Source: Tildeniella nuda ZEHNDER 1965/U140
GTDB taxonomy: Bacteria; Cyanobacteriota; Cyanobacteriia; Leptolyngbyales; Leptolyngbyaceae
NCBI GenBank assembly: GCA_019358895.1
Contig: JAHHIG010000002.1
Span: forward strand, 124,001 to 188,000
Reading direction: 5' to 3'
DNA: 64,000 nt
Positions 15,284 through 33,577 of this stretch are shown here, in pieces. The translations under genes and the position numbers were made by a program. The notes beneath the pieces were generated by a model that ran no database searches, was not told the origin of the DNA, and saw only the letters and a list, made by a program, of their open reading frames with translations. How positions within the stretch are numbered: the stretch's first letter is position 1; every line of letters begins with the position of its first letter.

Positions 15284-15486
15284 TTATGCTTCTGTTCTAG
15301 CAGGTTCAAGCGCTAATTCGCTCTGCTAATGGGCTGGATGTCCTGCCGCTACAATTCCTGAAGAGATGAGCGCAAATTGTTATTGTGTCCGTTATCTGGA
15401 TTCTATAACTTGAGTGCAAGCACATCGCGTGGAGGTGCTAAGATTCAGACGATTGTGTCTAGCACGATCGCCTAAAGCAACTATTC

Positions 15487-15604
15487 GCTTCTAGGGTTCC
15501 GGTCTTGCGCGAGTGAGATGTCTGGTCCGAGAGAAGCAGCCGCTTTGAAACCTGCAATCACTCAGGCGAAGCGGTCACACGGCGGGAAAAAAGCCCGGGA
15601 GAGC
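15487..15604 (+). promoter_or_regulatory. Guanidine-I (ykkC) riboswitch
   Basis: The conserved blocks of the ykkC class occur in order: CTAGGGTTCCG (15491-15501), CTGGTCCGAGAGAAGC, then ACACGGCGGGA and AAAAGCCCGGGAGA. These are the guanidinium-binding core and the P1-P3 elements. It lies about 70 bases upstream of the first DUF1989 gene, on the same strand. Guanidine binding should favour read-through by competing with the following terminator hairpin, which shares the GCCCGGGAGA strand. Confidence 0.95.
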
Positions 15605-15672: not shown

Positions 15673-16392
15673 ATGTCTACCGAACCACACTCGATCAATC
15701 CAGCGTTAGTTGCCTGGGATGAAGTGATTCCAGGAGGTGCCTATTGGTCTCGCGTGATCAAGCACGGCACCACGCTTCGCCTTATTGCGCCCGAAGGTTC
15801 TAGAGGGGTAGCGCTGCTCTGCCATAACGCTGATAACGCGATCGAGCGCTACAATGCTGCCGATACTGCCAAGATTCAGTTCAACGCGTTCCTCAAAAAA
15901 GGGATGTTGCTTTACTCCGATATGGGACGCGTTTTGTTTTCCATCACGGAAGATACGGCTGGCTTGAATGATACGCTGGGCGGCTGTAGCAATCTCACAA
16001 CGAATGCGAAGTACGGCGATGGCGATTACAAAAATTCGCGGGATAACTTCCTGCTGGCGCTGATCAAACGCAATCTTGGTAAGAAAGATATCATGCCGAA
16101 TCTCAATTTGTTTACGCGGATTGCAGTTGATCCAGACGGCAATCTATCCTGGGCAGAAAAAACGGCACAACCGGGAGATTTTATTGACCTGCGGGCAGAA
16201 ATGAACGTGTTAGCGGTGTTGTCGAACTGTCCTCATCCGCTTGATCCCAGTTCAACTTACGATGCCAAGCCGATTCGGGCGATCGTCTGGAACGCTCCCG
16301 CATCCACTGCCGATGATCCCATTCGGACAGGCAATCCAGAAGCGGTACGCGGTTTTCAGAATACCGATGCGTATTTGGGGCAGTTGGTTTGA
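15673..16392 (+). CDS. DUF1989 protein, UAAP1 type (carboxyguanidine deiminase subunit)
   Basis: Urea amidolyase-associated protein 1 family (239 aa). Typical stretches are VIPGGAYWSRVIKHGTTLRL, DTLGGCSNLTTNAKYG and DLRAEMNVLAVLSNCPHPLD. Proteins of this kind pair with UAAP2 to form carboxyguanidine deiminase, which turns carboxyguanidine made by guanidine carboxylase into allophanate and ammonia (established for homologues such as CgdA/CgdB). Start ATG 15673 has a perfect AAGGAG seven bases upstream. Control by the guanidine-I riboswitch upstream supports the guanidine role. No carboxylase or allophanate hydrolase is adjacent, which is unusual. Confidence 0.9.
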   Translation: MSTEPHSINPALVAWDEVIPGGAYWSRVIKHGTTLRLIAPEGSRGVALLCHNADNAIERYNAADTAKIQFNAFLKKGMLLYSDMGRVLFSITEDTAGLNDTLGGCSNLTTNAKYGDGDYKNSRDNFLLALIKRNLGKKDIMPNLNLFTRIAVDPDGNLSWAEKTAQPGDFIDLRAEMNVLAVLSNCPHPLDPSSTYDAKPIRAIVWNAPASTADDPIRTGNPEAVRGFQNTDAYLGQLV

Positions 16393-16761: not shown

Positions 16762-17397
16762 ATGGTAGCGGCAGTTGAACTTGACCCCACAACGGCGATT
16801 TACGATGAAGTATTGCCTGCGCGAAAACCGTGGGCAAAGGTGCTGACGAAAGGACAAGTGCTGCGAATTGTGGATTTGGGTGGCAATCAGGCGGTGGATT
16901 TTCTCGTTTATAACGCGGATGATCCGAGTGAACGCTACAGTGCGCCGGATACGATTCGCGCTCAGGGCAATATTTTTATCACCACAGGCACAAAGCTGTA
17001 TTCCAACGATGGGAATGTGCTGATGACGGTGCTGAAAGACACCTGCGGACGGCATGATACGTCGGGCGGCGCGTGTAGCTGTGAGAGTAATTCGGTGCGC
17101 TTTGGGTTGGATAAAAAATGGCAGCACGCTTGTGTGGAAAATTTTCTCTATGCCATTAAGGATTACGGCTTGGGCAAACGGGATATGACCAGCAACATCA
17201 ACTTTTTTATGAATGTGCCTGTGAGTGAAGACGGCACGCTTGAAATTGTGGATGGTATTTCTGATCCGGGTAGCATTGTGGATTTGCGATCGGAGATGAA
17301 CACACTGGTGGCGATTTCTAACTGTCCGCAGATGAACAACCCCTGTAATGGCTACAACCCAACTCCCATTCAGTTAATCATTTGGGATGCAGTGTAA
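16762..17397 (+). CDS. DUF1989 protein, UAAP2 type (carboxyguanidine deiminase subunit)
   Basis: Urea amidolyase-associated protein 2 family (211 aa), partner of the UAAP1 protein 369 bp upstream. Family blocks are TAIYDEVLPARKPWAKVL, GRHDTSGGACSCESNSVRFG (His and Cys residues likely to bind metal), DLRSEMNTLVAISNCPQMNN and the terminal NPTPIQLIIWDAV. Expected to complete the heteromeric carboxyguanidine deiminase. In most genomes the pair is nearly contiguous and followed by the biotin-dependent carboxylase; here repeats separate the two and the carboxylase is absent. A gene for it elsewhere in the genome would be needed. Confidence 0.9.
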   Translation: MVAAVELDPTTAIYDEVLPARKPWAKVLTKGQVLRIVDLGGNQAVDFLVYNADDPSERYSAPDTIRAQGNIFITTGTKLYSNDGNVLMTVLKDTCGRHDTSGGACSCESNSVRFGLDKKWQHACVENFLYAIKDYGLGKRDMTSNINFFMNVPVSEDGTLEIVDGISDPGSIVDLRSEMNTLVAISNCPQMNNPCNGYNPTPIQLIIWDAV

Positions 17398-17515: not shown

Positions 17516-18274
17516 ATGTCAACTATGGGCACACGTCTCAGTTCGATCGCGCTCGTTACTCTTGCCGCAACTCTGCTTTCATCCATCGCTCAAGCCAGTC
17601 CTTCTGGTGGCGCGATCGAGCCAAAGTTAGGTGCTATGGTTTGCATCAATGGGCACTACAACTCAGATGGTGGCACCTTCATTTGTACAGCGACCACACC
17701 GAAGACAGATTCGATGGTTTGCTTTGATGGCTACCCAAATGCAGAGGGTACAGCAGTCATCTGTAACCAGTTTATCGAGAGCCGTCAGTGGTTGGAAAAC
17801 GAGATTCGTAGAGACTCTAATCGTAGGTCCAGGCGCTCTAGAACCCCTCCTCCCCCCGCTCGGAAAGCACTTTTCACTTTAATTAGCTATGAGAATCTCT
17901 ATGACGGACTCTATAATTACGTTGTCGTAGATGCCGATGGATGGGTTAGTAAGGGACGTGTAGAAACTAGTGCGCGTTGGGGAGCGTGTAGGGGTTGCGG
18001 GTCTGGAAGGATTAATACTGAACAACTGGTGCAGTTTGAGCAGCGGATCAACCAACTGACGCTTACACCCCAAGCTAAACGTCCTAAAAAGATGAATGGA
18101 AAGCGACACACGGTAATTCTCATTCAGCAACATGGAGTCATTGAGCGCCGTGATTATGTTGACGGTTTACCCCCAGACCTTCATCGGTTCGTTGAGGAGA
18201 CAACTTTTCTGGTGCAGGAAGCTAAAGATAAAGCCTTAGATGAACTGTTTCGTCGTGCTACACCGCGCAAGTAA
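17516..18274 (+). CDS. Exported protein of unknown function (252 aa)
   Basis: I do not recognise the family. A signal peptide (residues 1-28, ending IAQAS) is followed by two short Cys-paired repeats, MVCINGHYNSDGGTFIC and MVCFDGYPNAEGTAVIC, which look like small disulfide loops. Then come a basic, Arg/Ser-rich and poly-Pro stretch (RRSRRSRTPPPPAR) and a globular C-terminal domain with WGACRGCGSG and many charged residues. Start ATG 17516; ATG 17525 is an alternative. The guanidine genes lie just upstream on the same strand, but the palindromic element between them argues against co-transcription. Confidence 0.7.
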   Translation: MSTMGTRLSSIALVTLAATLLSSIAQASPSGGAIEPKLGAMVCINGHYNSDGGTFICTATTPKTDSMVCFDGYPNAEGTAVICNQFIESRQWLENEIRRDSNRRSRRSRTPPPPARKALFTLISYENLYDGLYNYVVVDADGWVSKGRVETSARWGACRGCGSGRINTEQLVQFEQRINQLTLTPQAKRPKKMNGKRHTVILIQQHGVIERRDYVDGLPPDLHRFVEETTFLVQEAKDKALDELFRRATPRK

Positions 18275-21470: not shown

Positions 21471-21550
21471 GAAACCACGTCTTGTTCAGGCATCACTGAG
21501 CCATAATGTTCACGGGCTTGAATCCCCCCAACTCTCAACCAACTGCGTTC

Positions 21551-22003
21551 ATGAATCATTGTTTGACTGTCGGATTTCGTCTTGCGCTCATTATTCCGTT
21601 TGCGCTGGTTACAGTTGGCACAAGTGCGTTGAGAGGGAATGCCCAAAGCGCACTCTACAAGCCTATTTCAATCACGTCTGGGAAAACGATAACAGATAAA
21701 CTAACCGATAAGGATATCCCCACTGGGCAGGGTGGGTTTGCACGAGACTATGTGCTGTCGCTGAAAGAGGGCGATCAACTGTCGATCGATCTCACTTCCG
21801 AAAACTTCGACACGATCGTCGCCCTGATCGGGAGCGACGGTTCTACCATTGCTGAGAATGATGACGGACCTGATGGCAGTACCAGTTCGCTCTTATTCAC
21901 CCGCATTACCAAAGCTGGCACCTATTTTATTCGCGTTCGTGCCTTCGGTGAACTGGCTGGCGGGAACTTCAAACTCAAGGTCACACTGCTGAAACCGCTG
22001 TAG
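21551..22003 (+). CDS. Exported PPC-domain protein
   Basis: Bacterial pre-peptidase C-terminal (PPC) beta-sandwich domain: YVLSLKEGDQLSIDLTSENF, DTIVALIGSDGSTIAENDDG and GTYFIRVRAFGELAGGNFKL are the usual blocks. The domain covers nearly the whole mature protein, with no peptidase attached. ATG 21551 (MNHCLTVGFRLALIIPFALV) begins a clear signal peptide. An upstream in-frame ATG at 21506 would add 15 residues that do not look like signal sequence. Probably an exported binding protein; no specific role can be assigned. Confidence 0.85.
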   Translation: MNHCLTVGFRLALIIPFALVTVGTSALRGNAQSALYKPISITSGKTITDKLTDKDIPTGQGGFARDYVLSLKEGDQLSIDLTSENFDTIVALIGSDGSTIAENDDGPDGSTSSLLFTRITKAGTYFIRVRAFGELAGGNFKLKVTLLKPL

Positions 22004-22140: not shown

Positions 22141-24798
22141 TCAGTTCACCCTGGCACGAAAGCGAATGAAGCCGTAAGCATTGTTTGGCGTACCGGGTGC
22201 AGTGGCATTAGGCAAGCTTGCCGGACTCTTGACGACATTCACCACCACGGCTCCATTGCTATTGGTAGCAGAGCAGGAAACCGAGGGAGTCGCACCAGGG
22301 TTGAAAAACTGCCCTCCGTCAGCATCGGGGACGTTGGTCAAGTTGGTCGATGTGGCACCGATCGTCAGATTAATCCCCGACTCTGGTGCGCTACTAAACG
22401 AGGTCGGTACAAAGGTGCTGTTGCTTGGCACTAAATCACAGAGATTAATATTAGTTGCCGCCGCTCCGCCATCTGAGAGAAAGTAAATTGTATACTCCAA
22501 CAAATCTCCTGGCTTAATTGCGCCGCCATTGATTGCGCCCCGCAAATAGGTACTGATACCGCTAGTTCCATCAATAGGAGTGGACCAGTTGGCTGCATTG
22601 TCGTTGGTAGAACCAGGGTCATCTACTGTAGTCGTGATGTTGACTCCGTTCAATGCTGTAATACGTTTGACCAGAAGAATCTGAGGCGTTGCACCTGCTG
22701 TCACGATCGTCGTTGGATCACTGCTGCTGTTGTTACCCGTGTTGCCGTCGCTGCCACCGGAAACCGTAGCGGTGTTGGTGACGCTGGCAGGGGCGTTTGC
22801 TGCCACACTGACGGTCAGCGTGACCACAGGATAGCTGGCAAGGGCAGCCAGAGCATCGGAACGGGTGCAAGTAGCGGTTTGTCCAGCGATCGAACAGGTC
22901 CAACCTGTGCCGCTGGCAGCGGTGGGAGTGAGACCAGCAGGTAGGGTATCAGTGACGGTGACGGTGCCACTGCTGGCAATGCCGCCGCTATTGGTGACGG
23001 TGATGGTGTAAGTCCCGGTGCTGCCCTGGGTAAAGTTGCCCGTGTGAGCTTTGGCGATCGTTTCGTCGGGTGTGTTGGGGATAATATTCACGGTCGTAGA
23101 AGCAGCAGAACTGGGAACATACGTCCAGATGTCCAGTCCTTTCGCATCGCCGAATGCGCCCGTACAGGAGGCGTTGGTATTGGTTCCGCTCGAACCGAAG
23201 CCCCGTTGCGTTGAGGTGGTATTGAAGCCCGTAATCGGGTTGCTGTTGGGAATGGACGGTGGAGCGATGCCACAGAGGACGCTGCCAACTGTACCGACTG
23301 TGACTCCGCCGATCGTCTTGTACCCGCGATCGTCATAAAAACCAGTGGTGTTACCCAAAGGGTTGGACGCATTCAGCAGGGTAAAGCTGGGTCCACCACG
23401 GATACTACTTTCAGCGTCCAGTAAGGGAAAGTGGTATTCACCATTCCGCACTGTAATCCGAACAGGATAGTTAGAACCAACGGGAAAAAAGGTACCACTG
23501 TTGTCTTTGCCATCCCAGGCGATCGTTTGGATGCCAGCCGTGGTGATTAATCCAACCAATCTGCGGTTTTGGATATTGGTCGGGTCAAAGTTAACCCCAT
23601 CGCGGCTGATGATGATTTCATAACTACCTGGCACGTTGCTGTTAAAGCGAAAGGTACCACCCGTATTTTGAGCAGAGGTGTTGCCAGTCACAGTGCCCGT
23701 GAAACTGGCAGCGCTGACCATTGGAGTAGTGGGGATGAGTGGAATGCCAAGGGCGGCGATCGACTCCGTTGCACCAGCACTGCTCATCGGATTATTGAAG
23801 AAAATGACGTGATTTGGCAGCGCCAGGTTGGTTCCGCCCTGAAGCACTGTAAGTTGAGCACTATTTCCTAAAACGTCGTGATAGAGAGGCGTTTGCCCAT
23901 CACTATCATAAAAACCAACGTCGTTGCCATACATCACCCACCCATTTGCATCCAGTCCATTCAGGTCAGTGGTATAGCGATAGCCATCTTTTGTCACCAT
24001 GTAGACATCGGACTCAACAGGTCTACTGTTCCCTCCCGTAAAGAGTGCCAGGTAGTTGGCAAACAGTCGTCCGTTGATATCCGTCGTTGAGGTCAGGCTG
24101 CTGCGAACCGTCACATCCCAGGCAGAGGTACTGGTTGTCTGGCTGGCATTGAAGTTGTTGGCGCTGGTCATGGCGATCTCTGCCGTTGGACCTCCACCTG
24201 CGGTACTGTTGCCGCCAGAAGGACCGTAAAACGCAACGTTATAAATGCCGCTGGTGGGAGCTTGATAAAAGCAGGGAACATAGCCCGATGCGACCTGACC
24301 GCCCGGTGTAGCAGTTAATGGATTCGTGATGGTGTCGGGTCCTGCCAACTCTTGGGCGCGGCTGATGATCTTGCCCTGATTGGTGTTTAAGGTTGTGGCT
24401 CTTTGGGTAGAACATTGATAGTTGGGCGTTGGAATCGTCTCATTACCGATACGTCCTGACACCGTACCAGGGTTGAAAATGACTACATCACCAGACGTAG
24501 CGCCATTCGCAACCCCTACGGCTGTTGAACCCACCAGGATGTACTCACCTGCGTTGACATAGACTTGCAACAAGGTGCGGCGCAGCAGGGAGTTATCCAC
24601 CGGGGCTGTCGGTCCGTACCGAGTGCCTGCTACCCACTCCAGACTGGCTCTAAACCCTGTGGCACTGCTAGGGTAGAGGTTGCGGCTCCCTTCTGCCTGT
24701 ACTGGGCTAGACCAACTGCCGATCGCGCAAAGCAGGACAGCACTGCTGAGCAGTTTGCCTCTAAAGGGTAGATGTGTAAACAAGCGGCTCATAGTCAT
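22141..24798 (-). CDS. Exported DUF11/Ig-like surface protein (885 aa), last gene of cluster
   Basis: A signal peptide (about 1-36, ending VQA) is followed by a long Thr/Ser/Gly/Asn-rich beta-structured protein. About residues 370-470 resemble a FlgD-type Ig fold (SYEIIISRDGVNFD, TIAWDGKDNSGTFFPVGSNY). About residues 580-705 form a DUF11 repeat (GTYTITVTNSGGIASSGTV, TDTLPAGLTP, VTNTATVSGGSDGNTGNNSS). The C-terminal part is a second such repeat with paired Cys. It begins 6 bp after the barrel gene ends, so the two are clearly co-transcribed. Likely cell-surface or secreted; its ligand is unknown. Confidence 0.8.
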   Translation of the reverse strand: MTMSRLFTHLPFRGKLLSSAVLLCAIGSWSSPVQAEGSRNLYPSSATGFRASLEWVAGTRYGPTAPVDNSLLRRTLLQVYVNAGEYILVGSTAVGVANGATSGDVVIFNPGTVSGRIGNETIPTPNYQCSTQRATTLNTNQGKIISRAQELAGPDTITNPLTATPGGQVASGYVPCFYQAPTSGIYNVAFYGPSGGNSTAGGGPTAEIAMTSANNFNASQTTSTSAWDVTVRSSLTSTTDINGRLFANYLALFTGGNSRPVESDVYMVTKDGYRYTTDLNGLDANGWVMYGNDVGFYDSDGQTPLYHDVLGNSAQLTVLQGGTNLALPNHVIFFNNPMSSAGATESIAALGIPLIPTTPMVSAASFTGTVTGNTSAQNTGGTFRFNSNVPGSYEIIISRDGVNFDPTNIQNRRLVGLITTAGIQTIAWDGKDNSGTFFPVGSNYPVRITVRNGEYHFPLLDAESSIRGGPSFTLLNASNPLGNTTGFYDDRGYKTIGGVTVGTVGSVLCGIAPPSIPNSNPITGFNTTSTQRGFGSSGTNTNASCTGAFGDAKGLDIWTYVPSSAASTTVNIIPNTPDETIAKAHTGNFTQGSTGTYTITVTNSGGIASSGTVTVTDTLPAGLTPTAASGTGWTCSIAGQTATCTRSDALAALASYPVVTLTVSVAANAPASVTNTATVSGGSDGNTGNNSSSDPTTIVTAGATPQILLVKRITALNGVNITTTVDDPGSTNDNAANWSTPIDGTSGISTYLRGAINGGAIKPGDLLEYTIYFLSDGGAAATNINLCDLVPSNSTFVPTSFSSAPESGINLTIGATSTNLTNVPDADGGQFFNPGATPSVSCSATNSNGAVVVNVVKSPASLPNATAPGTPNNAYGFIRFRARVN

Positions 24799-24804
24799 TA
24801 CGGC

Positions 24805-27800
24805 TTATGGATTGAGGAAAACGGCTGAAGTGGGGACGGTGCCGGGGAGGGGAATTTGGGGAGCGGGAGGTGGGGAAGCGGGAGTCGGGAGTCGGGAGTC
24901 GGGAGTCGGGGAAGCAGGGGAAGCAGGGGAAGCAGGGGAAGCAGGGGAAGCAGGGGAAGCAGGGGAAGCAGCCGTGGCGATCGGTGTGGAAGGTGGCTCC
25001 TGAGGTGGGGGAAGGCGTTGTTGACCGAAGCCGTTAAAGAGTTCGTTGAGTTTGATGGTGACACCGAGGTAGGGACCGCCCGCAGAGCGAGAGTTGCCGT
25101 CGAAGTCGCGATCGCCCACTCTGCCAAACATATAGCCTGCGGCAAGTCGCAAATTTGGGGTCAGGTAATAGCCCACTTCGGCAACCAAGCCCGTTTCGCT
25201 GTAGCCCACGCCTGGTTGATTGATCCAGCGGGCTTCACCGACGAGATCCCACTTGTAGCCGAGACGATAGGTTGCTCGTGCCTGAGCGATCGTGACCAGC
25301 CCCGAATTCACGAAATCATCTGCTAGATAGGACGTGCTGCTTCGGAGAGCAAATTTGCCGTAAAATTCCCAGCGCCAGTTCGGTGCGTAGATTGCCTCTG
25401 CTGCCAGAACGTGATCGATCGCTCCGGTGCCCGTACCAAACAAAATCGTGTCGGGGATCGTAGACGGATTTTTGCGGTACTCATAGCGCAGCAGGGCATT
25501 GAACTTGTCATCGTTGGGATCGCGGTATGCCAAGCCCACTTTCAACGTCGCAGTGTCGCCCAACCCGGTAAGCTTCTGGTTGGCAGCGCTGGCTTGCTGA
25601 TAGCGCACCAGTGCGGTCAGAGCTGAAGAAATTTTGCCCGTTGCAGCCGCAGAAATAACCGTGTTGCTGCCTTCAGAGGACGTGCGGTGCTCAAACCGGG
25701 CGCTTGCCTGGAAGGCAGGATTATCGGTGTAGGCGATGCCCACGCTGTAAGTGTCGCCAGACTGTAGTCCAACAGATGCACCCGATTGACCAGCGGCAAA
25801 GGGTTGAGCAAACTGGGTTCCGGCAGCCGTTCTACCCAAAAAGTTGCCAAACACGTGTTCATATGCCAGATCCATCTTCAGACCGGGTGCCAGGATGATC
25901 TGGTGACTGATGCCCGCTGTCCCGTACATGGTCATGGCATCAGAGCTTTTGAGCATCGAGAGCCGTCCGCTCACGGTGGTATTGGCACCGAGCTTGTAGT
26001 CTCCAGCAACGCCCAGACTGGTGATGGATTGTCCAGCAAACTGTCCTCGCGTATAGAACTGCTGCGCCAGTTGAACGTTGATACCGGGCATCGCCTGCCA
26101 GTTCAGCGCCAGCAAGGTGCGATCGTTGTAAACCGCGTCAGCCTGCGCCGAAAGGGTGGTTTCGTTTTGCGCCAGGAACGTGAGACGAGGGTTGAGGGGA
26201 ACGGTGAGGCGCGATCGCAACTGGTCAGAAGTAGTGTTGAACACTGGATTCAGGCGATCGCTCCGATCGCGGTGGAACCAGTCGATCGCCAGTTCCGATG
26301 CTCCAAACTTCTGCACCACGCCCGCCGAAATAGTGGTGAGCGAGTTGTCTACTCTGGAACCAGCCACCGCTGCTAACCGGAGTGTCAGCAGGTCTTCCAG
26401 GGTATTCAGCTCACGGGGTGCAATCCCTTTGTTGTCTTCGTGGTCGTACTGAAAGCGGAGTGCTGTGATGGGAGAGAGTTTGGCGGCTACCTGAGCACCA
26501 TAGCGGGTTTGACCGGGCACAAAGCTCACCGTGGCATTGTTGGCAAACCCGGTTTCTGCCGAACGGAAGTAGGCACGTCCACGGATACCGTTGGCAATCT
26601 CGCCTTCCAGTTCTGCCCGGTATGCCGCGCCGCTCACCTGACCCAGCGTGTCAGAGAGATTGCTGGAGTGGGCATATTCGGCAATCAGGCGGGCGCTGGA
26701 ACCTAGAGAAATATAGGCATCGGCACCGTACAGCTCGAAATTACGGTTGCCCTGATCTTCTTTTAAATAGGTGGCACCAATCCAGCTTTCCTGGTTTTGC
26801 TCGCGCGCAAGGTGGTAAACGGCTCGTCCCGCGTAAATGCTGTTGTCGGAGCCGGGTGTATCGTACTGGTAAGTGATGACAATTCGGCGCACCAGAGTTT
26901 CGCCATCGGTGCCGATATCCGTTCGCAGCACAGGCTGACGGAATAGGAGCGTACCACGATCGTAGTCAATTTCGTAATCGGGACCACGACTCAGTGATCG
27001 GCGCTCAATCACTGTACCGGGGCGATTCAGCTCTTCCAGTTCCAGGAACACATTCTCGCTGCCTTCGACCAGCAAACGGCGAGACACAAAGTAGTAGCCG
27101 CTGGTGCCATCAGGGGCGATCGTGTCGCGCTGAAAGCCCTGCACGTTGTTGCCGTAGAAGCCCGTTAGTTGCAGATTGCCGAAGTTGTAGTTGACTTTTA
27201 AGCCGTGCAGTGAGCGGGTAATGGCGGTGAACTCCTGCGATCGCCGCGCAAACTCCTCGGTGTTGTAGTCGCCCCACATGGCATAGTCAATACCTGCACC
27301 GAGTACGGGCGAAGTTCGCTCTAGCCGGAGGTACAGGCTATCGGTAGACGGAGCAAGAATCGTGGATTGGGAACTGTCGCCATAGGTGGGATACACCTGA
27401 TCACAGGACTGAGTATCGCGGAACAGGCGCGTGGTGCCGTCACAGGTCTGGTTTAGATTACGGTTGCTGTTGTATGCCCCGGTGAACAGCCATTCGCCAA
27501 TTTTCCCGGTGGCAAACACGGCTCCCCGCACGTCTAACTCATAGCGGTTGTTGCGATCGGCGGGCAGAAAATCTCGAAAGCTGTCATAAAAATTGGTGCC
27601 CCGTTTGCCAAAGCGAATATCAATGACTCCAGTGGCGATCGACGGGCGCAGATTGGTTTCAAACAGCAGTTGGGTAAACGCCTCCAGGCTGCCTGCGACC
27701 GCTCGAATGTTCACCGTTCTGGCATTCAGGCTGGAGCGCAACGACGCAGTAAACTGTCCCTGCACTGCTTTGACTTGAAATCCGGGCTGATCGCGATCGG

Positions 27801-28656
27801 CATCAGCATCCACAAACTCACCTTCGGAGGCAATCAGCGTGACGATCGCCTCCCGGCTAGAGCGGTTGCCTTTGTCGTCCAGCAGTTGCCCCTGAAGCGT
27901 AGCGGTCGATCGACCATCAGCAGGAATTCTTGCCTCAACGGTGGCGATCGTCATCTGCCTTACGTCGCCGCGCACCTGCACCTGCGTCGAAACCAGCCCA
28001 CCCGCAACTCCATTTGTCGTCGCCTGAGCGGTCAGAGTGTTCTCTCCTTCTTTTAACGCCACCCCGTACCAGCTTTGTGTCACAATGCCAGTCGTTTTGT
28101 CTGTCTCTGTACGTCCTATCAAACTGTCAGATACCCCCACACCATTCACGTTCAAGGTAATCTGGCTGCCCTGGGCATACTGCAAAACTACAGTAACAGC
28201 GGGAACATCCAGAAGCGCCTGGGCAGTTGGGGTGAGGATGCGGACTTCGCCGGGAGTAAGGGGAGAGGGGGCAGGGGGGGCAGGGGGAGTAGGGGGAGTA
28301 GGGGGAGCAGGGGGAGCAGGGGGGGCAGGGGGAGTAGGAGTAGGAGTAGGAGTAGATGGAATGGTTTCGGGGGGGGCGATCGGGGCTAATTGAACAATTG
28401 AAGTTGATGGAATCGTTTCGGGGGGAGCGATTGGCGTTAATTGCGCGATCGAATCGAACACCGCCGCTGGTACAGTGGTCACGGGGTTACTTCCTGACTT
28501 GCCATCTGCAACAACTTCAGCGGTTTTGGCGAGTGGTCTTTCTGGGGCAGGAGTCGTTGCTTTGGCTGGAGGCTGAAGACAGCACAGCAGCAGCAATTCG
28601 GTCGTGAGCGAGAGCCAAAGCAAAGAAGCAGTCAGATGACGTTTCTGCGGTTTCAT
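24805..28656 (-). CDS. Large predicted outer-membrane beta-barrel protein with Ig-like region (1283 aa)
   Basis: Layout: signal peptide (1-33); a spacer with the duplicated unit VQLAPIAPPETIPST; a Pro/Ala/Thr tract (about 110-135); Ig-like repeats (about 140-330, e.g. ATLQGQLLDDKGNRSSREA); then a region of about 850 residues of alternating strands rich in aromatic residues and Gly, with VYPTYGDSSQSTILAPSTDS and YLRLERTSP, typical of large outer-membrane barrels in DUF11 clusters. The barrel appears to close at GGPYLGVTIKLNELF, and a Pro-rich tail with seven ASP units follows, encoded by a GGGGAAGCA 9-mer. It overlaps the upstream gene by four bases. It may secrete or anchor the DUF11 partners. 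No TonB box is evident. Confidence 0.75.
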   Translation of the reverse strand: MKPQKRHLTASLLWLSLTTELLLLCCLQPPAKATTPAPERPLAKTAEVVADGKSGSNPVTTVPAAVFDSIAQLTPIAPPETIPSTSIVQLAPIAPPETIPSTPTPTPTPPAPPAPPAPPTPPTPPAPPAPSPLTPGEVRILTPTAQALLDVPAVTVVLQYAQGSQITLNVNGVGVSDSLIGRTETDKTTGIVTQSWYGVALKEGENTLTAQATTNGVAGGLVSTQVQVRGDVRQMTIATVEARIPADGRSTATLQGQLLDDKGNRSSREAIVTLIASEGEFVDADADRDQPGFQVKAVQGQFTASLRSSLNARTVNIRAVAGSLEAFTQLLFETNLRPSIATGVIDIRFGKRGTNFYDSFRDFLPADRNNRYELDVRGAVFATGKIGEWLFTGAYNSNRNLNQTCDGTTRLFRDTQSCDQVYPTYGDSSQSTILAPSTDSLYLRLERTSPVLGAGIDYAMWGDYNTEEFARRSQEFTAITRSLHGLKVNYNFGNLQLTGFYGNNVQGFQRDTIAPDGTSGYYFVSRRLLVEGSENVFLELEELNRPGTVIERRSLSRGPDYEIDYDRGTLLFRQPVLRTDIGTDGETLVRRIVITYQYDTPGSDNSIYAGRAVYHLAREQNQESWIGATYLKEDQGNRNFELYGADAYISLGSSARLIAEYAHSSNLSDTLGQVSGAAYRAELEGEIANGIRGRAYFRSAETGFANNATVSFVPGQTRYGAQVAAKLSPITALRFQYDHEDNKGIAPRELNTLEDLLTLRLAAVAGSRVDNSLTTISAGVVQKFGASELAIDWFHRDRSDRLNPVFNTTSDQLRSRLTVPLNPRLTFLAQNETTLSAQADAVYNDRTLLALNWQAMPGINVQLAQQFYTRGQFAGQSITSLGVAGDYKLGANTTVSGRLSMLKSSDAMTMYGTAGISHQIILAPGLKMDLAYEHVFGNFLGRTAAGTQFAQPFAAGQSGASVGLQSGDTYSVGIAYTDNPAFQASARFEHRTSSEGSNTVISAAATGKISSALTALVRYQQASAANQKLTGLGDTATLKVGLAYRDPNDDKFNALLRYEYRKNPSTIPDTILFGTGTGAIDHVLAAEAIYAPNWRWEFYGKFALRSSTSYLADDFVNSGLVTIAQARATYRLGYKWDLVGEARWINQPGVGYSETGLVAEVGYYLTPNLRLAAGYMFGRVGDRDFDGNSRSAGGPYLGVTIKLNELFNGFGQQRLPPPQEPPSTPIATAASPASPASPASPASPASPASPTPDSRLPTPASPPPAPQIPLPGTVPTSAVFLNP

Positions 28657-30248
28657 GGTTTAGCCCCTTCCTGGAATGAAGGAGTGACAGCAAAGTTCAT
28701 CCGCACCATGCCATTGGGTTCTAAATGCACCAGACGGGACTGGCTGTTGCGTTCGCTGAAATAGAGATTGGGAGCCAGGGTATAGCCCGGAATGCTGCTC
28801 AGGTCGAGGACACCCGTGCGGTATCCCGGCAGCACATTGGCAACCGAGTACAACCCGTCTGCGTCGGTAGTGATACGGTTGCCGTCTTCCATAAACACAA
28901 CCGCGTTGGGCACTCCCGGTTCTCCGGGCTGCTGCTCGCCATCGAAGTTTTTGTCGATGAAGACACGACCGAGAATGGTGCCGCAGTCGGTGATGATGCC
29001 AGCGCGAATGCGGAGTTGGTGTACCGCTGGACCATCCTTCACCCCAAAGCCGTTATCTGCCCGTTGCCCAAAGACGATCGCGCTATTGCGTCCCTTGCCC
29101 CGCACTGCATCGGGTGTCACCACTGCTGCGTAAGCAATGTTCAACACGGCACTGGGGTCAGTTGCGCCTTGCGGTAGGGATGCGCCCACGCTGAAAGTAA
29201 CTGTGGAGCCGTTCTGAGTCGTCGTAATCGGTACAGCGGTGCCGCGAAAGTCCCCTCGTACCGCTTTTGGCAGGAATTGGAAACCCAGCGGGAGGGTATC
29301 GGTAATCGTCAGATTGTTGATGGCGGCGCTGGATAGATTTCTGACCAACAGGCGGTAGATGACGGTATCGCCCGGTTCTGCCGTGGCACGATCGCCCGTT
29401 TTGATGATTTGAATCTCTTGCGCCTGACAGATGCCTGCACCAAAACTGAGTGCGGCAATCACCAGGCTGGTTTGTTCCGCATCTTGAATCGTGATGGTAT
29501 CAGTGACAGCGGTATCATTGCTGCCGCTGCTAATCGGTTTGCCGTCGATCGCCGTTGCCGTATAAGACACCTGATTGCCGTTACGTGCCCCGATCGTTAA
29601 GCGGAACCGTCGTTGAGCATAGATGGAGTTGCGAGGCGGATTGATCACCAGAATGTAGGAGCGTCCCTGGTCTAGCTGCCCTTTCCGCACGTCCAGCAAG
29701 AAGTTATACACACCGCGATCGCCATTGGTGAGCGAGAAGGGATTGCTATTTTCGGTGTTGGGCGATCGACCTTCGGCAATCCCATTTCCTGGCTGATCGG
29801 GTACTTCTGTTGGCGTAAGCGAAATGAGTCGCCCCAGATTGATTCCCGTTGGATCAGCGGCATCCGATTCATACAGCGCAATGCTGAAGCCGCTGTAGTC
29901 ACTTAACATCTCTCCCGCACAGCCCACAATGCGCCCCAGCGGGTCAACCAGTCCCGGTGTGAACGTCCCCCCAATCTGGTTGGTCATGTTCAAAATTTGA
30001 ACCGTCGGCGCTAGACCACAGTTCTGGCTGCTGCCCGTCTGCGGATCGCACAGCGGCAAGCTAACCGCGTCGTATTGATAGGACGCTGTATTTTGCAACC
30101 GAACACTGGGTGCCGCGATCGCGGCTGGTGCTGGCGGAGTTTGTGCCTGAGCCGTTGCCATGGGAAGCGTGCTGCTAGCTAAAACAGCCACCACCAGGTG
30201 TTTTAAATAGTTGGGAAAAGGCGGGTGTGACATCGGTGCGGCTATCAC
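28653..30248 (-). CDS. Exported DUF11 and SdrD B-like protein (531 aa)
   Basis: Signal peptide (about 1-33), then an N-terminal beta domain, a DUF11 repeat (about 275-385: GDRATAEPGDTVIYRLLVRN, TDTLPLGFQFLP) and a C-terminal SdrD B/Cna-B-like domain (ILGRVFIDKNFDGEQQPGEP, GVPNAVVFMEDGNRITTDAD, GLYSVANVLPG). The last type is an Ig-like fold often used as a stalk and sometimes stabilised by Ca2+ (DKNFDGEQQ resembles a Ca loop). It overlaps the barrel gene through ATGA. Start at 30248 gives MIAAPMSHPPF; the internal Met at residue 6 (MSHPPFPNYL) may be the true start. Confidence 0.8.
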   Translation of the reverse strand: MIAAPMSHPPFPNYLKHLVVAVLASSTLPMATAQAQTPPAPAAIAAPSVRLQNTASYQYDAVSLPLCDPQTGSSQNCGLAPTVQILNMTNQIGGTFTPGLVDPLGRIVGCAGEMLSDYSGFSIALYESDAADPTGINLGRLISLTPTEVPDQPGNGIAEGRSPNTENSNPFSLTNGDRGVYNFLLDVRKGQLDQGRSYILVINPPRNSIYAQRRFRLTIGARNGNQVSYTATAIDGKPISSGSNDTAVTDTITIQDAEQTSLVIAALSFGAGICQAQEIQIIKTGDRATAEPGDTVIYRLLVRNLSSAAINNLTITDTLPLGFQFLPKAVRGDFRGTAVPITTTQNGSTVTFSVGASLPQGATDPSAVLNIAYAAVVTPDAVRGKGRNSAIVFGQRADNGFGVKDGPAVHQLRIRAGIITDCGTILGRVFIDKNFDGEQQPGEPGVPNAVVFMEDGNRITTDADGLYSVANVLPGYRTGVLDLSSIPGYTLAPNLYFSERNSQSRLVHLEPNGMVRMNFAVTPSFQEGAKP

Positions 30249-30347
30249 TAAAGGGAGGAGAGTTGGGGGGCGGAGGGAGTGGGGAAGACGTGTGAAGCTG
30301 CGTCACCTGCCCTTCTAAACGAGCCTAAAAAGGCACAAAAGCTCTAC

Positions 30348-30448
30348 CGGAAGACCCTGGAGGGTTTTCCGTAAGCCAACGTTGAAAGAATTCGTTGAAA
30401 GAATTGGGGCAGGTAACGCAGCCGTTAAAACGCTCGATCGCCTGCCCC
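30348..30448 (-). promoter_or_regulatory. Two hairpins between cluster genes
   Basis: CGGAAGACCCT/AGGGTTTTCCG (30348-30371) pairs at 10 of 11 positions with a 2-base loop, and GGGGCAGG (30406-30413) pairs with CCTGCCCC (30441-30448). A third small hairpin, GCCTAAAAAGGC, lies just left of the first. They sit in the 222-bp gap between the 188-aa and 531-aa genes and could end part of the transcription, or protect mRNA ends, so that gene dosage differs along the cluster. Confidence 0.5.
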
Positions 30449-30470
30449 AGCAAGCATCAAGGCGTTACAA

Positions 30471-31037
30471 CTAACGCACTTTAACCTGGTATTCGGCGTT
30501 TACAGGTGCTTTTGCCGCCAGCGTATTCGGCAAATTCCAGCGGATATTGGTGTATGCCTCAGCCGGGGCGGGACGGGTTTCGACCTTGCCACTGGCTAAT
30601 GCGACCTGCACTGTGGGCGCTTCGACAAAGCTGCGTCCGCCATTAATGCTGTAAGTAATCTGAGTGGGTTGGCTAGAAGCCACTTTCGCCGACTTCAGCA
30701 CAAACACGGTGCCTTTGGGGATCGGCTGATTCAGGGTCAGATTTTTGACGGGACGATCGCCCTCGTTTTTGCCCATCAAGCGATACCGCAGCACATCGCC
30801 CGTTTGCACCGCTAACTGGTTTGCACCGTTCCAGGAAATGACTTCTTTGCCCTGAGCATCCTTGCTGATGACTTGCTTTTCGCCCAGCAGCTTTAACTGC
30901 ACTTTGGGATGCTGCATCGCTTTAGCGATCGCCACATCGGAGTGGAATAAACCCGCTACAACGGGCAATTTACTAGCAAAGGGAATGGTCAGGATCACCG
31001 CAGCAACTCCCAGACCGATCGCGAATTGACGTTTCAT
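30471..31037 (-). CDS. Exported DUF11-like protein (188 aa)
   Basis: Single DUF11-type domain after an N-terminal hydrophobic helix (residues 5-25, signal or anchor). Blocks: GANQLAVQTGDVLRYRLMGK, GDRPVKNLTLNQPIPKGTVF, then an ending NAEYQVKVR. The frame is open to 31118, but ATG 31037 (MKRQFAIGLGVAAVI) has GAGG upstream and begins a normal signal segment. It lies between the 801-aa and 531-aa genes on the same strand. A role in surface assembly is inferred from context only. Confidence 0.8.
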   Translation of the reverse strand: MKRQFAIGLGVAAVILTIPFASKLPVVAGLFHSDVAIAKAMQHPKVQLKLLGEKQVISKDAQGKEVISWNGANQLAVQTGDVLRYRLMGKNEGDRPVKNLTLNQPIPKGTVFVLKSAKVASSQPTQITYSINGGRSFVEAPTVQVALASGKVETRPAPAEAYTNIRWNLPNTLAAKAPVNAEYQVKVR

Positions 31038-31171
31038 GCTTTCAACCTCTTCAAATTGGGTGGTAGGTAATAGGTGACAGGTAAGGGAGACGCGGGGACG
31101 CGAGGCATTTGACTGCATTCAAAAGTCAAAAGTCAAAAGTCAAAAGTCAAAGCGCCCCGACTCTCCACTCC

Positions 31172-33577
31172 TTAGTTGATCCGACGACGGAAGATAAACG
31201 TACCGCTGGCTCCGGGTTGGATGGAAATACCCAGCGTGTTGGTGTAGCGGGTGACATCTGTCGCTGGCGTTGTTCCGGTTTGATCACCACTGGGAGCGTA
31301 GGTAATGGTGCCGAACTGAGCCGTTGTCGCACCGACTACGTTGCTGGTGTCGATCGCGCCGTTGGTGTCGTTATCTCTTGCCCAGGTGTTGGTGCCAACC
31401 GTGCCATCCTCAGTGATGACCACGTTGCCTGCATTCAGGGTGACGTTGCCTGCACCAACCGGAGCAATGGAAACGTTGGTGTAGGTAATCCGATACTCAA
31501 GGAACCGACCCACCCGTAGGTTTGCCGCCGTTGGCGTTTGTGTATAGTTCTCAACCACCGTCGTACCGTCGGTATCGAGAATGCGGGCATCTTTCACCAT
31601 TTTCAGAAACCCGGTGTAAACGCGATCGATCGTCCGGTTCTGCGTGGGTTCGGCGGCTGCCAGATCAGGTCTGCCGTTGCCATTCACATCCTGGAAGGCG
31701 TAAATGGGAATTGAGAAACCATTGCCAGTATCAGTAGAGAGAGCCGTACCAGGAGTCCCTGGCAGGTCCACTGAGACGCTATAGTTCACCGATGTTCCAG
31801 CAGTGAGGGTGGGAATGGTGATGGCACTGCCAGAGGTGAAGATAAAGTTAGTGCCGTTGTAGGTGTAAACTGCCGTTTGAGCGCCATAGGTCAGCGTGAC
31901 AGTCGTACCCGTCGGTGGCAGAACCTCGCCCGTAGCAGGAGTGAAGTTAGCAGAGTCAGGCACCAGCAGAATATTGCTCAAACTGCCCGTGGTGGGGTTG
32001 TTGATCGTATTCAGGAAGGTGACCGAATTTGGATCGATCGTGGAACCAGGTGCAGTGTTTGCTGGAATGGTAGAGGACTTATTGGTGAAGTCATCGTTGT
32101 TATTCGTGGGACCAACTGCCGCAGGCTGACCGTTGGGACCGTTGAGAATGGTGCCCGCAGCGGCAACGGTAAACACGTTGTCTTCTCCACCTGGTCCCGT
32201 ACCTGTGTTGTTGTTGTTGCTGTCTACTCCGTCTGCGGTAGGGTTGGCAACGCCATCGGTAGGTGTGATAGAACCTGTTGTGCCGTCATCATTGAAGTTG
32301 CTGGGAGCCTGGTCACCCGATTCGTCGTAAACCAGTGTGCCGCCGCCGCCTGCGGTTTGACCAAAGACCTGAGCCAGGTTGGCGATCGTCGTTGTCCCTG
32401 TTACGCCTGTCGTCACAACCTGGAAGGTGAACCCTGTGACCGTTGTACCAGCCGGAATGGGACCATTGTTAATGAAGCCAATTCGAGTGGCGTTACCGAT
32501 CGTGCCGATCGCCGCTACGTTTGTGACCCAGTTTGCCGTATTCGCATTCGTACCGACTGGACTATTGGTGTAAACCACAGTCCAACCTGTCGGAGCAACA
32601 GGCGTTCCGGTCAGGGTTGTGTTAGCTGGCACAGCATCCGACACCAAAACCTGCGTTACTGGAGCACCATCCACATTAATCGTGGTGCCTACCAGGTTCG
32701 CAGCGCTGAGACCACTGGTTCCTGCTGGCGCGGTGGCATCCACTCGCAGCGACAAGCCATAAGTCAATACGTCATCGTTAAGCGCCGGGGTGGTGGAATC
32801 AGTGTAGGCAGTGCGGGTTTTGAGGATGGCAGCAAACGCCTGGGATTGAGCACCAACCAATACCTGTTGCGTCACACTGGCTTCTCGTTCGCCATTGGTC
32901 GGTACACCTGCCGCTTCACCCGCAGCGCCATCCGCATTGTCAACGGTGCGAATTTCGCCAGCGGTAGCACCATCAATGGCATCCGGTTGGTTTTGAGTCC
33001 CCGCACTGTTATCATTCGCTCCGGTATCACCCAGGCGCACTGCAATAGCGGCACCCGAAGAAGCCAGCCCCGAAACGGTAACGGGTACGCGCACAATCAC
33101 CGAGCCGCCCGCCAGAATGGAGGCTGTTGTCACACCACCTGCTGGAATATTAATAAAGGTTATGCCGCCGTCAGTGCTGTATTGCAGCGTTCCAGCCGCA
33201 CCGGGACCTGTCACCGTCGCGGTGCCCGGAATAAAGAACTGGGTGGGGTCATTACCAACGTTAGTGATCCGGTAGTCGTAGTTGATGAGATCGTTTGGCA
33301 GCACCGTACCACCAGTTGTATCGGTGATTGCGAGCGGGGTTGCCGTTACGCCTGCCACTTCTGCCACGGTAACTACCACGGTGTTAGACGTGGCGTTGAT
33401 GGTCGTGCCCGGCGCATTGGGATCTTCATAGGTCGCCGTAGCCGTGTTGCTGATCGTGGTTCCGGCGGCTGTCCCATCTGCAAAGGCAGACGTAGACATT
33501 GATAGCGCACCGCCAACTAAAAGAGTGGTTGCCAGTAGTCGGCGATAGGTACAACGGGTTCGTCTTTTCATGAGCAT
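31172..33577 (-). CDS. Exported multi-repeat DUF11-like protein (801 aa), first gene of cluster
   Basis: The signal peptide ends near STSAFA (residues 1-33). The mature protein is extremely rich in Thr, Asn, Gly and Ala and poor in Lys and Cys, with recurrent DUF11-like motifs: ISNTATATYEDPNAPGTT, NDLINYDYRITNVGNDPTQF, TPTAANLRVGRFLEYRITYT and a C-terminal TNTLGISIQPGASGTFIFRR. Acidic loops such as QDVNGNGRPD look like Ca2+ sites. Composition and order suggest a secreted matrix or S-layer-like protein. It is upstream of four related genes on the same strand, and the promoter should lie between 33578 and about 33900. Confidence 0.8.
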   Translation of the reverse strand: MLMKRRTRCTYRRLLATTLLVGGALSMSTSAFADGTAAGTTISNTATATYEDPNAPGTTINATSNTVVVTVAEVAGVTATPLAITDTTGGTVLPNDLINYDYRITNVGNDPTQFFIPGTATVTGPGAAGTLQYSTDGGITFINIPAGGVTTASILAGGSVIVRVPVTVSGLASSGAAIAVRLGDTGANDNSAGTQNQPDAIDGATAGEIRTVDNADGAAGEAAGVPTNGEREASVTQQVLVGAQSQAFAAILKTRTAYTDSTTPALNDDVLTYGLSLRVDATAPAGTSGLSAANLVGTTINVDGAPVTQVLVSDAVPANTTLTGTPVAPTGWTVVYTNSPVGTNANTANWVTNVAAIGTIGNATRIGFINNGPIPAGTTVTGFTFQVVTTGVTGTTTIANLAQVFGQTAGGGGTLVYDESGDQAPSNFNDDGTTGSITPTDGVANPTADGVDSNNNNTGTGPGGEDNVFTVAAAGTILNGPNGQPAAVGPTNNNDDFTNKSSTIPANTAPGSTIDPNSVTFLNTINNPTTGSLSNILLVPDSANFTPATGEVLPPTGTTVTLTYGAQTAVYTYNGTNFIFTSGSAITIPTLTAGTSVNYSVSVDLPGTPGTALSTDTGNGFSIPIYAFQDVNGNGRPDLAAAEPTQNRTIDRVYTGFLKMVKDARILDTDGTTVVENYTQTPTAANLRVGRFLEYRITYTNVSIAPVGAGNVTLNAGNVVITEDGTVGTNTWARDNDTNGAIDTSNVVGATTAQFGTITYAPSGDQTGTTPATDVTRYTNTLGISIQPGASGTFIFRRRIN

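Follow-up and report, generated by a model that had tools for sequence, protein, structure and literature searches.

A conserved cyanobacterial cluster of DUF11-like proteins and a predicted outer-membrane barrel as a candidate strand-joining fibre system

The five-gene locus and its conservation

The 64,000-nucleotide stretch of Tildeniella nuda ZEHNDER 1965/U140 DNA analyzed here (the window) carries a cluster of five minus-strand open reading frames (ORFs) within positions 22141–33577, encoding four DUF11-like proteins and a predicted outer-membrane barrel (P0001–P0005, Table 1). An ATGA overlap joins the 531- and 1283-residue genes, and the other gaps measure 6, 222 and 53 nucleotides. An earlier note on this DNA had described such a closely packed, one-strand arrangement, and the ORF list bears it out. 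The P0003 and P0004 genes probably start later than the listed ORFs, at M6 and at M28 (31037), respectively; the second start gives 188 residues, near the 185–203 residues of most P0004 relatives. Signal peptides were assessed by eye, with no predictor. Promoter and terminator scans of the locus stayed below shuffle expectation and were uninformative on co-transcription.

DUF11 scores over the curated Pfam cut-off in P0001 and P0003 and under it in P0004 (19.2 versus 24.6 bits), which passes the NCBIfam DUF11 repeat model (28.3 versus 24). P0005 carries DUF7925 in place of DUF11 (Pfam, E 6e-63), with a fold like that of DUF11, and the count of four DUF11-like proteins given in the note was upheld. 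P0002 gave only weak Pfam matches under the cut-off and no NCBIfam family. P0001 combines a variable N-terminus, an intact DUF11 domain and a C-terminal domain of the type termed acceptor below, and has no donor hairpin. P0005 runs from an N-terminal hairpin through several immunoglobulin-like (Ig) domains, DUF7925 included, to an incomplete DUF11-like domain at the C-terminus. P0003 consists of an N-terminal donor hairpin, an intact DUF11 domain and an SdrD_B domain (26.7 bits, just under the cut-off of 29.7), and P0004 is a single acceptor-type DUF11-like domain.

Table 1. Genes and features of the cluster, with positions in the window
Feature	Position	Strand	Remark
P0001	22141..24798	-	885 residues; proposed tip subunit
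P0001 terminal acceptor domain, residues 705-885	22144..22686	-	C-terminus ...RFRARVN*
P0002	24805..28656	-	1283 residues; proposed outer-membrane exit barrel and anchor
P0002 Ig-like domains (two), residues 136-336	27649..28251	-	proposed periplasmic; weak Invasin_D3/Big_1 matches under cut-off
P0002 barrel region, residues 337-1205	25042..27648	-	~36-40 predicted membrane strands (DSSP on model)
P0002 non-barrel insert, residues 507-585	26902..27138	-	conserved, after ~6-7 strands; plug-like position
P0002 proline-rich C-terminal tail, residues 1216-1283	24808..25011	-	from sequence
P0003	28653..30248	-	531 residues as listed; proposed base subunit, adjoining barrel
P0003 orphan hairpin, residues 49-75	30024..30104	-	VRLQNTASYQYD...; proposed donor
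P0004	30471..31037	-	188 residues from M28; listed ORF of 215 residues reaches 31118
P0005	31172..33577	-	801 residues; proposed rod subunit
P0005 orphan N-terminal hairpin, residues 41-70	33368..33457	-	ISNTATATY...TSNTVVVT; proposed donor
P0005 intact internal DUF7925 domain, residues 248-428	32294..32836	-	K253, D314, N400
P0005 terminal DUF11-like domain, residues 654-801	31175..31618	-	ends ...FIFRRRIN*; proposed acceptor

To survey the gene neighbourhood, seven cyanobacterial barrels served as queries in a scan of named genomes of bacteria and archaea. This returned 401 relatives, of which the best 80, all in records named as cyanobacteria, were kept; the relatives counted in these loci are not independent of one another. 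The order P0005-P0004-P0003-P0002 on one strand was found in 77 of the 80 loci, and in the three exceptions (L046, L053 and L105) the barrel ORF starts less than 200 nucleotides from a contig end. The overlap between P0003 and the barrel is exactly 4 nucleotides in 64/77 loci. A P0001 relative follows the barrel in 60/80 loci by BLAST, to which the C-terminal motif described below adds three that BLAST missed.

In a sample of 244 genomes from the phylum, 23 have DUF7925 and 30 have the barrel at E values up to 1e-20. The barrel is present in all 23 DUF7925 genomes and in 7 of the 221 others (Fisher p 2e-26, a value that treats genomes as independent, which they are not). For each of the 24 DUF7925 matches, a barrel lies on the same strand ~3–5 kb downstream when the listings are compared by eye. 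Within the family to which the window belongs, the barrel was present in each of the 29 sampled genomes, that of T. nuda among them. The recurrence of the order in 77/80 loci, together with the co-occurrence of DUF7925 and barrel, argues that the arrangement is not due to chance.

Split DUF11-like domains and the proposed fibre

P0001, P0004 and P0005 end in one common strand of a DUF11-like domain, [FY][RQK]x[KRQ][VIL][NKR]-stop, and the hairpin that normally closes such a domain is missing. This motif closes 65/77 P0005, 60/77 P0004 and 52/65 P0001 relatives. It was found in none of 77 P0003 relatives, none of 82 barrel ORFs and 3 of 529 other ORFs of at least 150 residues in the same loci; these three adjoin the barrel downstream and are missed tip (P0001-type) genes. 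No p-value is attached to these counts because the relatives are not independent. In the T. nuda genome, a DNA search pattern written for the F/Y-R version of the ending gave 8 matches (9 for a control pattern); just three of these coincide with the end of an ORF of 50 or more residues, and all three are proteins of the barrel cluster.

We compared the last domain of P0005 with its intact internal DUF7925 domain in an AlphaFold2 (AF2) model of the mature protein (mean predicted local distance difference test score, pLDDT, 87.7; predicted template modelling score, pTM, 0.61; model number is P0005 number minus 33). Strands were matched by order, with short strands omitted and no superposition. 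In model numbers, the DUF7925 domain comprises a lysine-bearing K-strand (216–226), 237–246, the acid strand (272–282), 287–294, 299–304, 332–337, a penultimate strand (346–356), the Asn strand (363–375) and 382–386. The terminal domain comprises the K-strand (625–634), 659–668, the acid strand (687–691), 711–713, 724–728, 744–748 and a last DSSP strand, 758–767, that is the C-terminus of the protein. It has no counterpart of the Asn strand or of the strand after it.

The residues follow the same division. The internal domain carries K253 (72/78 alignment rows), D314 (73/78) and N400 (75/78), with 5, 5 and 3 gaps, respectively, and its model superposes on the DUF11 (CLIPPER) domain 9IFR of an Acinetobacter silvestris fibrillar adhesin with Z 10.2 and a root-mean-square deviation (rmsd) of 2.6 over 122/123 residues, which indicates a CnaA-like fold. 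It is equally like the isopeptide domains of Gram-positive pilins. The CLIPPER crystal structure is reported to have Lys715 joined to Asn806, with Asp748 as the presumed catalyst (PMC12617251), and the Lys/Asp/Asn triad recurs in the P0005 internal domain along with the fold. That CLIPPER domain is intact in one chain, whereas here we propose a domain split between chains. The intact DUF11 domain of P0003 likewise holds a full triad, K283, D317 and N388, each in 78/78 rows. The terminal domains of P0001 (K711 and D788, 66/66 rows) and P0005 (K662, 78/78; E723, 76/78; D724, 69/78) carry the lysine and acid only, and the asparagine sits in the orphan hairpins. Compared with intact DUF11 by hhalign, the terminal domains gave a clear match for P0004 (95.7%, to the P0003 DUF11) and weak ones for P0001 (63%) and P0005 (30%), in alignments that cover the central part only. 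P0001 also has a cysteine, Cys787 (window 22438–22440), directly before the conserved acid of its terminal domain in 66/66 rows.

In the P0005 model, the N-terminal hairpin forms two strands (8–18 and 26–37, model numbers) with pLDDT in blocks of 73–83, lower than in most of the body, in line with a segment that lacks its partner. N44 and A46 are kept in 77/78 rows (N44 with one gap), as are N53 (78/78) and A55 (76/78) in the P0003 hairpin, and each asparagine belongs to an N-x-A signature resembling the one in the intact domains. A regular expression for this donor motif matched 76/77 P0005, 70/77 P0003, 2/77 P0004 and 3/65 P0001 relatives. These counts point to P0001 as acceptor only, P0005 as both, P0003 as donor only and P0004 as acceptor only. 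By model and alignments, P0005 thus has the anatomy of a donor-strand fibre subunit, with an incomplete Ig domain at one end and a donor strand at the other.

The common C-terminus could instead be a sorting signal read by the barrel, comparable to the C-terminal domain of the type IX secretion system (T9SS) or a beta-signal. The proteins would then be monomeric adhesins exported by P0002, and the hairpins ordinary parts of domains. The motif does mark exactly the barrel-linked proteins, neither the barrel itself nor P0003, and its F/Y-R form is confined to such proteins in the T. nuda genome. However, P0003 has no motif despite being the protein most tightly linked to the barrel, and the motif is the last strand of an incomplete Ig domain, which a pure signal would not need. 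A sorting signal would also leave the donor hairpins and the conserved Lys, acid and Asn unexplained, and we consider it unlikely.

On balance, and with some reserve, we lean towards an account in which the cluster serves to build and present a surface fibre of several pieces. Gene order, domain anatomy, residue conservation and distribution are observed directly; joining, the covalent bond, transport, location and adhesion are what we infer from them. Each junction would be a DUF11 (CLIPPER) domain in two parts, with the Lys/acid body at the C-terminus of one subunit and the Asn hairpin at the N-terminus of the next. The inserted hairpin would complete the domain in trans, as in donor-strand complementation. 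The predicted order runs from tip P0001 (acceptor only) through rod P0005 (donor and acceptor) to base P0003 (donor only), whose C-terminal SdrD_B domain may sit at the barrel. Since P0005 would offer both donor and acceptor, the rod could repeat. P0002 would be route out and anchor, by virtue of its putative periplasmic Ig domains and tail, very large pore and plug-like insert, and contact with peptidoglycan may be made through the OmpA domains found in relatives. Such a strand-exchange fibre fits the anatomy better than the sheath that the earlier note had suggested, for which no evidence was found. The more general claim of that note, a dedicated surface-export or assembly system, accords with the operon-like layout, the N-terminal Ig domains and the OmpA domains in or beside the barrels of relatives.

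In the engineered SpyTag/SpyCatcher pair, an autocatalytic bond seals two halves of a split domain. An autocatalytic Lys–Asn bond could seal the joints of the fibre in a similar manner, given the conservation of triad residues in body and hairpin alike, although we hold this covalent step to be less certain than joining itself. P0004 has Gln131 at the position of the catalytic acid in 78/78 rows, and the acid is also absent, by eye, from its relatives in Deinococcus ficus, Deinococcus aetherius and Acinetobacter. As an acid-less acceptor, P0004 may hold donor hairpins reversibly and non-covalently in the periplasm in the way of a chaperone, or it may end the chain.

The barrel P0002

In the predicted structure of P0002, two Ig domains at the N-terminus precede a long series of membrane-type strands (mean pLDDT 73, pTM 0.56). 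The 1283-residue barrel with Ig region and proline-rich tail proposed in the earlier note is therefore sustained, at moderate confidence, as a large strand-rich membrane domain. The model places ~7 strands before a conserved insert of short strands (pLDDT ~53–68) and 32 long strands after it. Of the 21 residues that do not vary among 13 barrels of three phyla, 6 fall in this insert. Both ends of P0002 are probably periplasmic, the tail included, because relatives show a base-like fusion in front of the barrel and OmpA domains in or beside it.

Structural searches returned several kinds of match. Residues 1–201 of the model align to C-terminal parts of glycoside hydrolase family 2 enzymes (Z 13.7–15.6), and the VIA alignments to porins extend over model residues 202–1068, which would agree with adjoining first and last strands. 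FimD came first in VIA (Z 16.8, rmsd 6.7, 308 residues aligned, to a model of pTM 0.56); one chain from the complex of LamB with the lambda tail fibre scored nearly as high (Z 16.1), as did a sucrose porin (15.1). SprA was absent among the VIA matches listed, which excludes nothing. A PDB sequence profile search with the barrel alignment found only the Ig part of beta-galactosidase (E 0.0096), and no SprA. A viral-structure search gave Ig and other generic rows, and a pattern scan found no barrel relatives in viral contigs. We read P0002 as a probable membrane barrel of very large size and uncertain affinity.

Ranked by E-value, the first three Foldseek rows were the Deinococcus SlpA/SDBC barrel. 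P0002 might accordingly be mainly a structural porin that tethers the outer membrane to peptidoglycan, as SlpA does, with the DUF11 proteins attached as a lattice or sheath, and the OmpA domains in or beside the barrel of relatives are in keeping with this. The Foldseek rows nevertheless reached a template modelling score (TM) of only ~0.2 at an rmsd of at least 24. Tips vary between loci in length and number, unlike a lattice protein, and a tether would not explain the division of labour between donors and acceptors. We regard this alternative as quite improbable.

Relatives in other phyla and comparison with known systems

By tblastn on plasmid records, relatives were found in Deinococcus, Thermus, Acinetobacter, Vibrio, Eleftheria and many alphaproteobacteria. 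In Deinococcus, Thermus, Acinetobacter and several alphaproteobacteria (Deinococcota and Pseudomonadota) the barrel has DUF11- or SdrD_B-type neighbours, so that the system is not exclusive to cyanobacteria. In D. ficus a gene of each of the five kinds is present, the small P0004-like one standing first and not second. We compared the cyanobacterial families with single proteins of these loci by hhalign, with FimD, FimH and LptD as controls (all <1%). P0004 matched small Deinococcus and Acinetobacter proteins at 95.8–97.5%, and P0003 matched the bases of two Deinococci and Thermus and an Acinetobacter fusion at 95.1–99.1%. P0005 matched a 670-residue D. ficus protein at 96.5% and D. aetherius proteins of 502 (95.1%) and 477 residues (71.4%). 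P0001 matched proteins of D. ficus (95.8%) and Thermus (95.0%, inside the protein and not at its end), with 0.9% for Acinetobacter and 29% for D. aetherius. Off-diagonal matches, such as P0004 to the D. ficus rod (92.5%) and P0003 to the Thermus tip (88.3%), are explained by DUF11 being common to the families. Examined by eye, D. ficus and D. aetherius show the same donor/acceptor division as cyanobacteria, and Thermus has a base donor and a tip acceptor; no P0004-like gene was seen in the Thermus stretch.

Fusions and larger chains also occur. Acinetobacter haemolyticus has a P0003-like protein fused in front of the barrel. On its plasmid p4 (L029, 2840–5043), the site expected for a rod holds several short ORFs, two of them annotated DUF11, which reflect either a broken gene or sequencing errors. 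Eleftheria carries an OmpA domain before the barrel (42.1 bits, cut-off 27.2), and the NIES-970 relative has a sub-threshold OmpA match after it, in the position of the P0002 tail (20.1 bits, same cut-off). OmpA is a separate gene in Acinetobacter (by annotation), in Vibrio (by eye) and in a sister cluster of the T. nuda genome. The barrel is preceded in Sinorhizobium by a giant 3362-residue protein annotated DUF11, in Devosia by one of 2684 residues annotated SdrD_B, with a 57-residue ORF between, and in Vibrio by an unannotated 2667-residue ORF that reaches the edge of the stretch. These look like a single-chain form of the same tip-to-base order.

The sister cluster (G000:C27:182313-191181; L008, 6314–15182) encodes a DUF11/SdrD_B base, a barrel 57% identical to P0002 over the barrel, a beta-helix/OmpA protein and a DUF11 tip. 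We examined it together with 17 loci of the family, one per genome; the set does not include G001, G008 and G025 or the additional barrels in G007 and G010. In 18/18 loci the base comes first, followed by the barrel and the OmpA protein, and some loci have two or three consecutive tip genes. With motif patterns slightly broader than those of the main count, the donor motif was found in 17/19 base ORFs. One exception, in L157, is the rear half of a broken base gene that shows the motif in its front half; the other is L166, where the motif was recognised by eye. Counting both, 18/18 loci have it. The C-terminal motif was found in 16/20 tip ORFs. Here the exceptions are slightly extended ends in L150 and L164, a short ORF ending RLRVRVN in L161 and an L164 ORF cut by the end of the stretch; in L165 the contig stops before the tip. 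No rod or P0004 was detected in the 18 stretches. With the donor on the base, the acceptor on the tip wherever a tip is readable, and neither rod nor P0004 detected, any pairing in these loci would therefore have to be between proteins.

This bears on another alternative, in which the P0005 hairpin completes the C-terminal domain of its own chain to give a circularised monomer, as the presence of both halves on P0005 would allow. Yet P0001 is acceptor only and P0003 donor only, the sister cluster places donor and acceptor on different proteins, and several Ig domains lie between the two ends of P0005. We consider closure within the chain very improbable.

Several observations weigh against a strand-joined fibre. 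When profiles of the two short donor hairpins were set against three intact domains, 5/6 comparisons gave scores inside the spread of 40 column-shuffled controls; the sixth, of the P0003 hairpin with the intact P0001 domain, reached 8.6 against a shuffle maximum of 7.9 with a different strand aligned. None was taken as support, and because these comparisons lie mostly within the shuffle range the identity of the hairpins rests on the N-x-A signature and strand order. The P0005 terminal acid stands in another local context (ITED) than elsewhere (CDxxP or TDxLP), and the NIES-970 P0004 retains Asp, by eye, at the acid position. Outside cyanobacteria the C-terminal motif is looser: the small Acinetobacter protein ends three residues past it, and in one D. 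aetherius rod the excess is about twenty residues. The stretches read in Sinorhizobium, Devosia and Vibrio showed no split subunits, and among the 50 genomes in the phylum sample that bear DUF11, 21 lack a barrel match. The P0002 model is of moderate confidence and does not fix the number of strands or the closure of the barrel, and its insert is an unproven candidate for a plug. As a separate matter, we rejected a rule that DUF11 proteins are confined to the surroundings of the barrel; it holds in the T. nuda genome, where all DUF11 matches (4/4) lie beside the barrel, and fails across the phylum in those same 21/50 genomes.

Chaperone-usher pili are assembled in tip-rod-base order from subunits with an N-terminal donor strand and a C-terminal incomplete Ig domain, and their 24-stranded usher barrel has a plug, inserted after about six strands. 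The present cluster resembles them in the proposed order of subunits, the donor and incomplete Ig ends and a predicted operon-encoded outer-membrane barrel with an insert after about six strands. It differs in that P0002 has more predicted strands, the subunits are DUF11 proteins with isopeptide residues, and the small partner P0004 is an acceptor and not a donor. The lead of FimD in VIA is not distinctive, the LamB-complex chain and sucrose porin lying within 1–2 Z units. Membership of P0002 in the usher family was rejected: there was no PF00577 match at E 0.1, none at E 1 among seven diverse relatives, and hhalign against four E. coli K-12 ushers gave 0.2%. No PapD-like or pilus chaperone family matched the five window proteins at E 0.1.

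SprA, the translocon of the T9SS, is a very large single-chain outer-membrane barrel. P0002 is likewise predicted to be one, and T9SS translocon entries appear at Foldseek ranks 16 and 38, although at TM 0.15–0.17 and with no sequence relation among PDB chains. T9SS models did not match any of the five genes; T9SS parts were not sought elsewhere in the genome. Type V or two-partner secretion, with its 16-stranded Omp85/TpsB barrel, was also rejected, since P0002 has no POTRA or haemolysin-activator match and far more predicted strands. An SLH domain was not matched in P0002.

Other filaments share parts of this design. The threads of Sulfolobus are described as joined head to tail by donor-strand complementation; an intermolecular isopeptide bond has been proposed for them, which would link the N-terminal amine to Asn57 two subunits away (PMC9715654). 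They differ in having a single subunit and no outer membrane or barrel, and in that the bond is not Lys–Asn within a split domain. GhlA of Litorilinea, with 49 DUF11 domains in a row, and GhpA of Aureispira also form surface filaments, each strand being one giant chain; excerpts of that paper describe no split subunits (PMC13319060). In excerpts of PMC13297417, the signal peptide of a PCC 11901 DUF11 protein was put to use. A paper on the type XI secretion system was rejected as a source on DUF11, all but one mention in its available text being of DUF1194 (PMC12282271).

The open-licence literature searched gave no description of the cluster, and no named pathway with these parts was found in Pfam or NCBIfam, in agreement with the earlier note. 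Donor-strand fibres and isopeptide pili are known; neither the combination proposed here nor the barrel appeared in the libraries and literature searched. More boldly, the cluster may represent an undescribed outer-membrane assembly pathway of at least three phyla, in which isopeptide domains that are split in nature, much as SpyTag/SpyCatcher is by design, build fibres with covalent seals, Ig subunits leave through a single-chain barrel of SprA size or larger, and a small acid-less acceptor acts as a chaperone of a new, inverted type. We regard this wider proposal as possible but doubtful. If the strand-joining account is right, many cyanobacteria and some Deinococci would carry an unrecognised donor-strand fibre-building system, apparently evolved apart from chaperone-usher pili in barrel and helper, with a fibre perhaps sealed covalently without a sortase. 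Several "hypothetical" and DUF11 genes conserved as a block would gain a role, P0002 would be among the largest single-chain outer-membrane barrels for study, and photosynthetic organisms would offer natural split-ligation pairs for biotechnology.

The cluster is flanked by a PPC-domain gene, a thioredoxin-like gene and gatA on one side and by an aminotransferase gene on the other, all of which look unrelated to it. The small PPC-domain protein (21506–22003, plus strand; DVUA0089-family match) is convergent with the cluster and shows no sign of belonging to it. Elsewhere in the window, a plus-strand Guanidine-I riboswitch (15480–15603, 78.2 bits) stands ahead of three genes, the third of which (17516–18274) has no Pfam match at E 0.001 and the first two of which (15673–16392 and 16762–17397) are DUF1989 genes.

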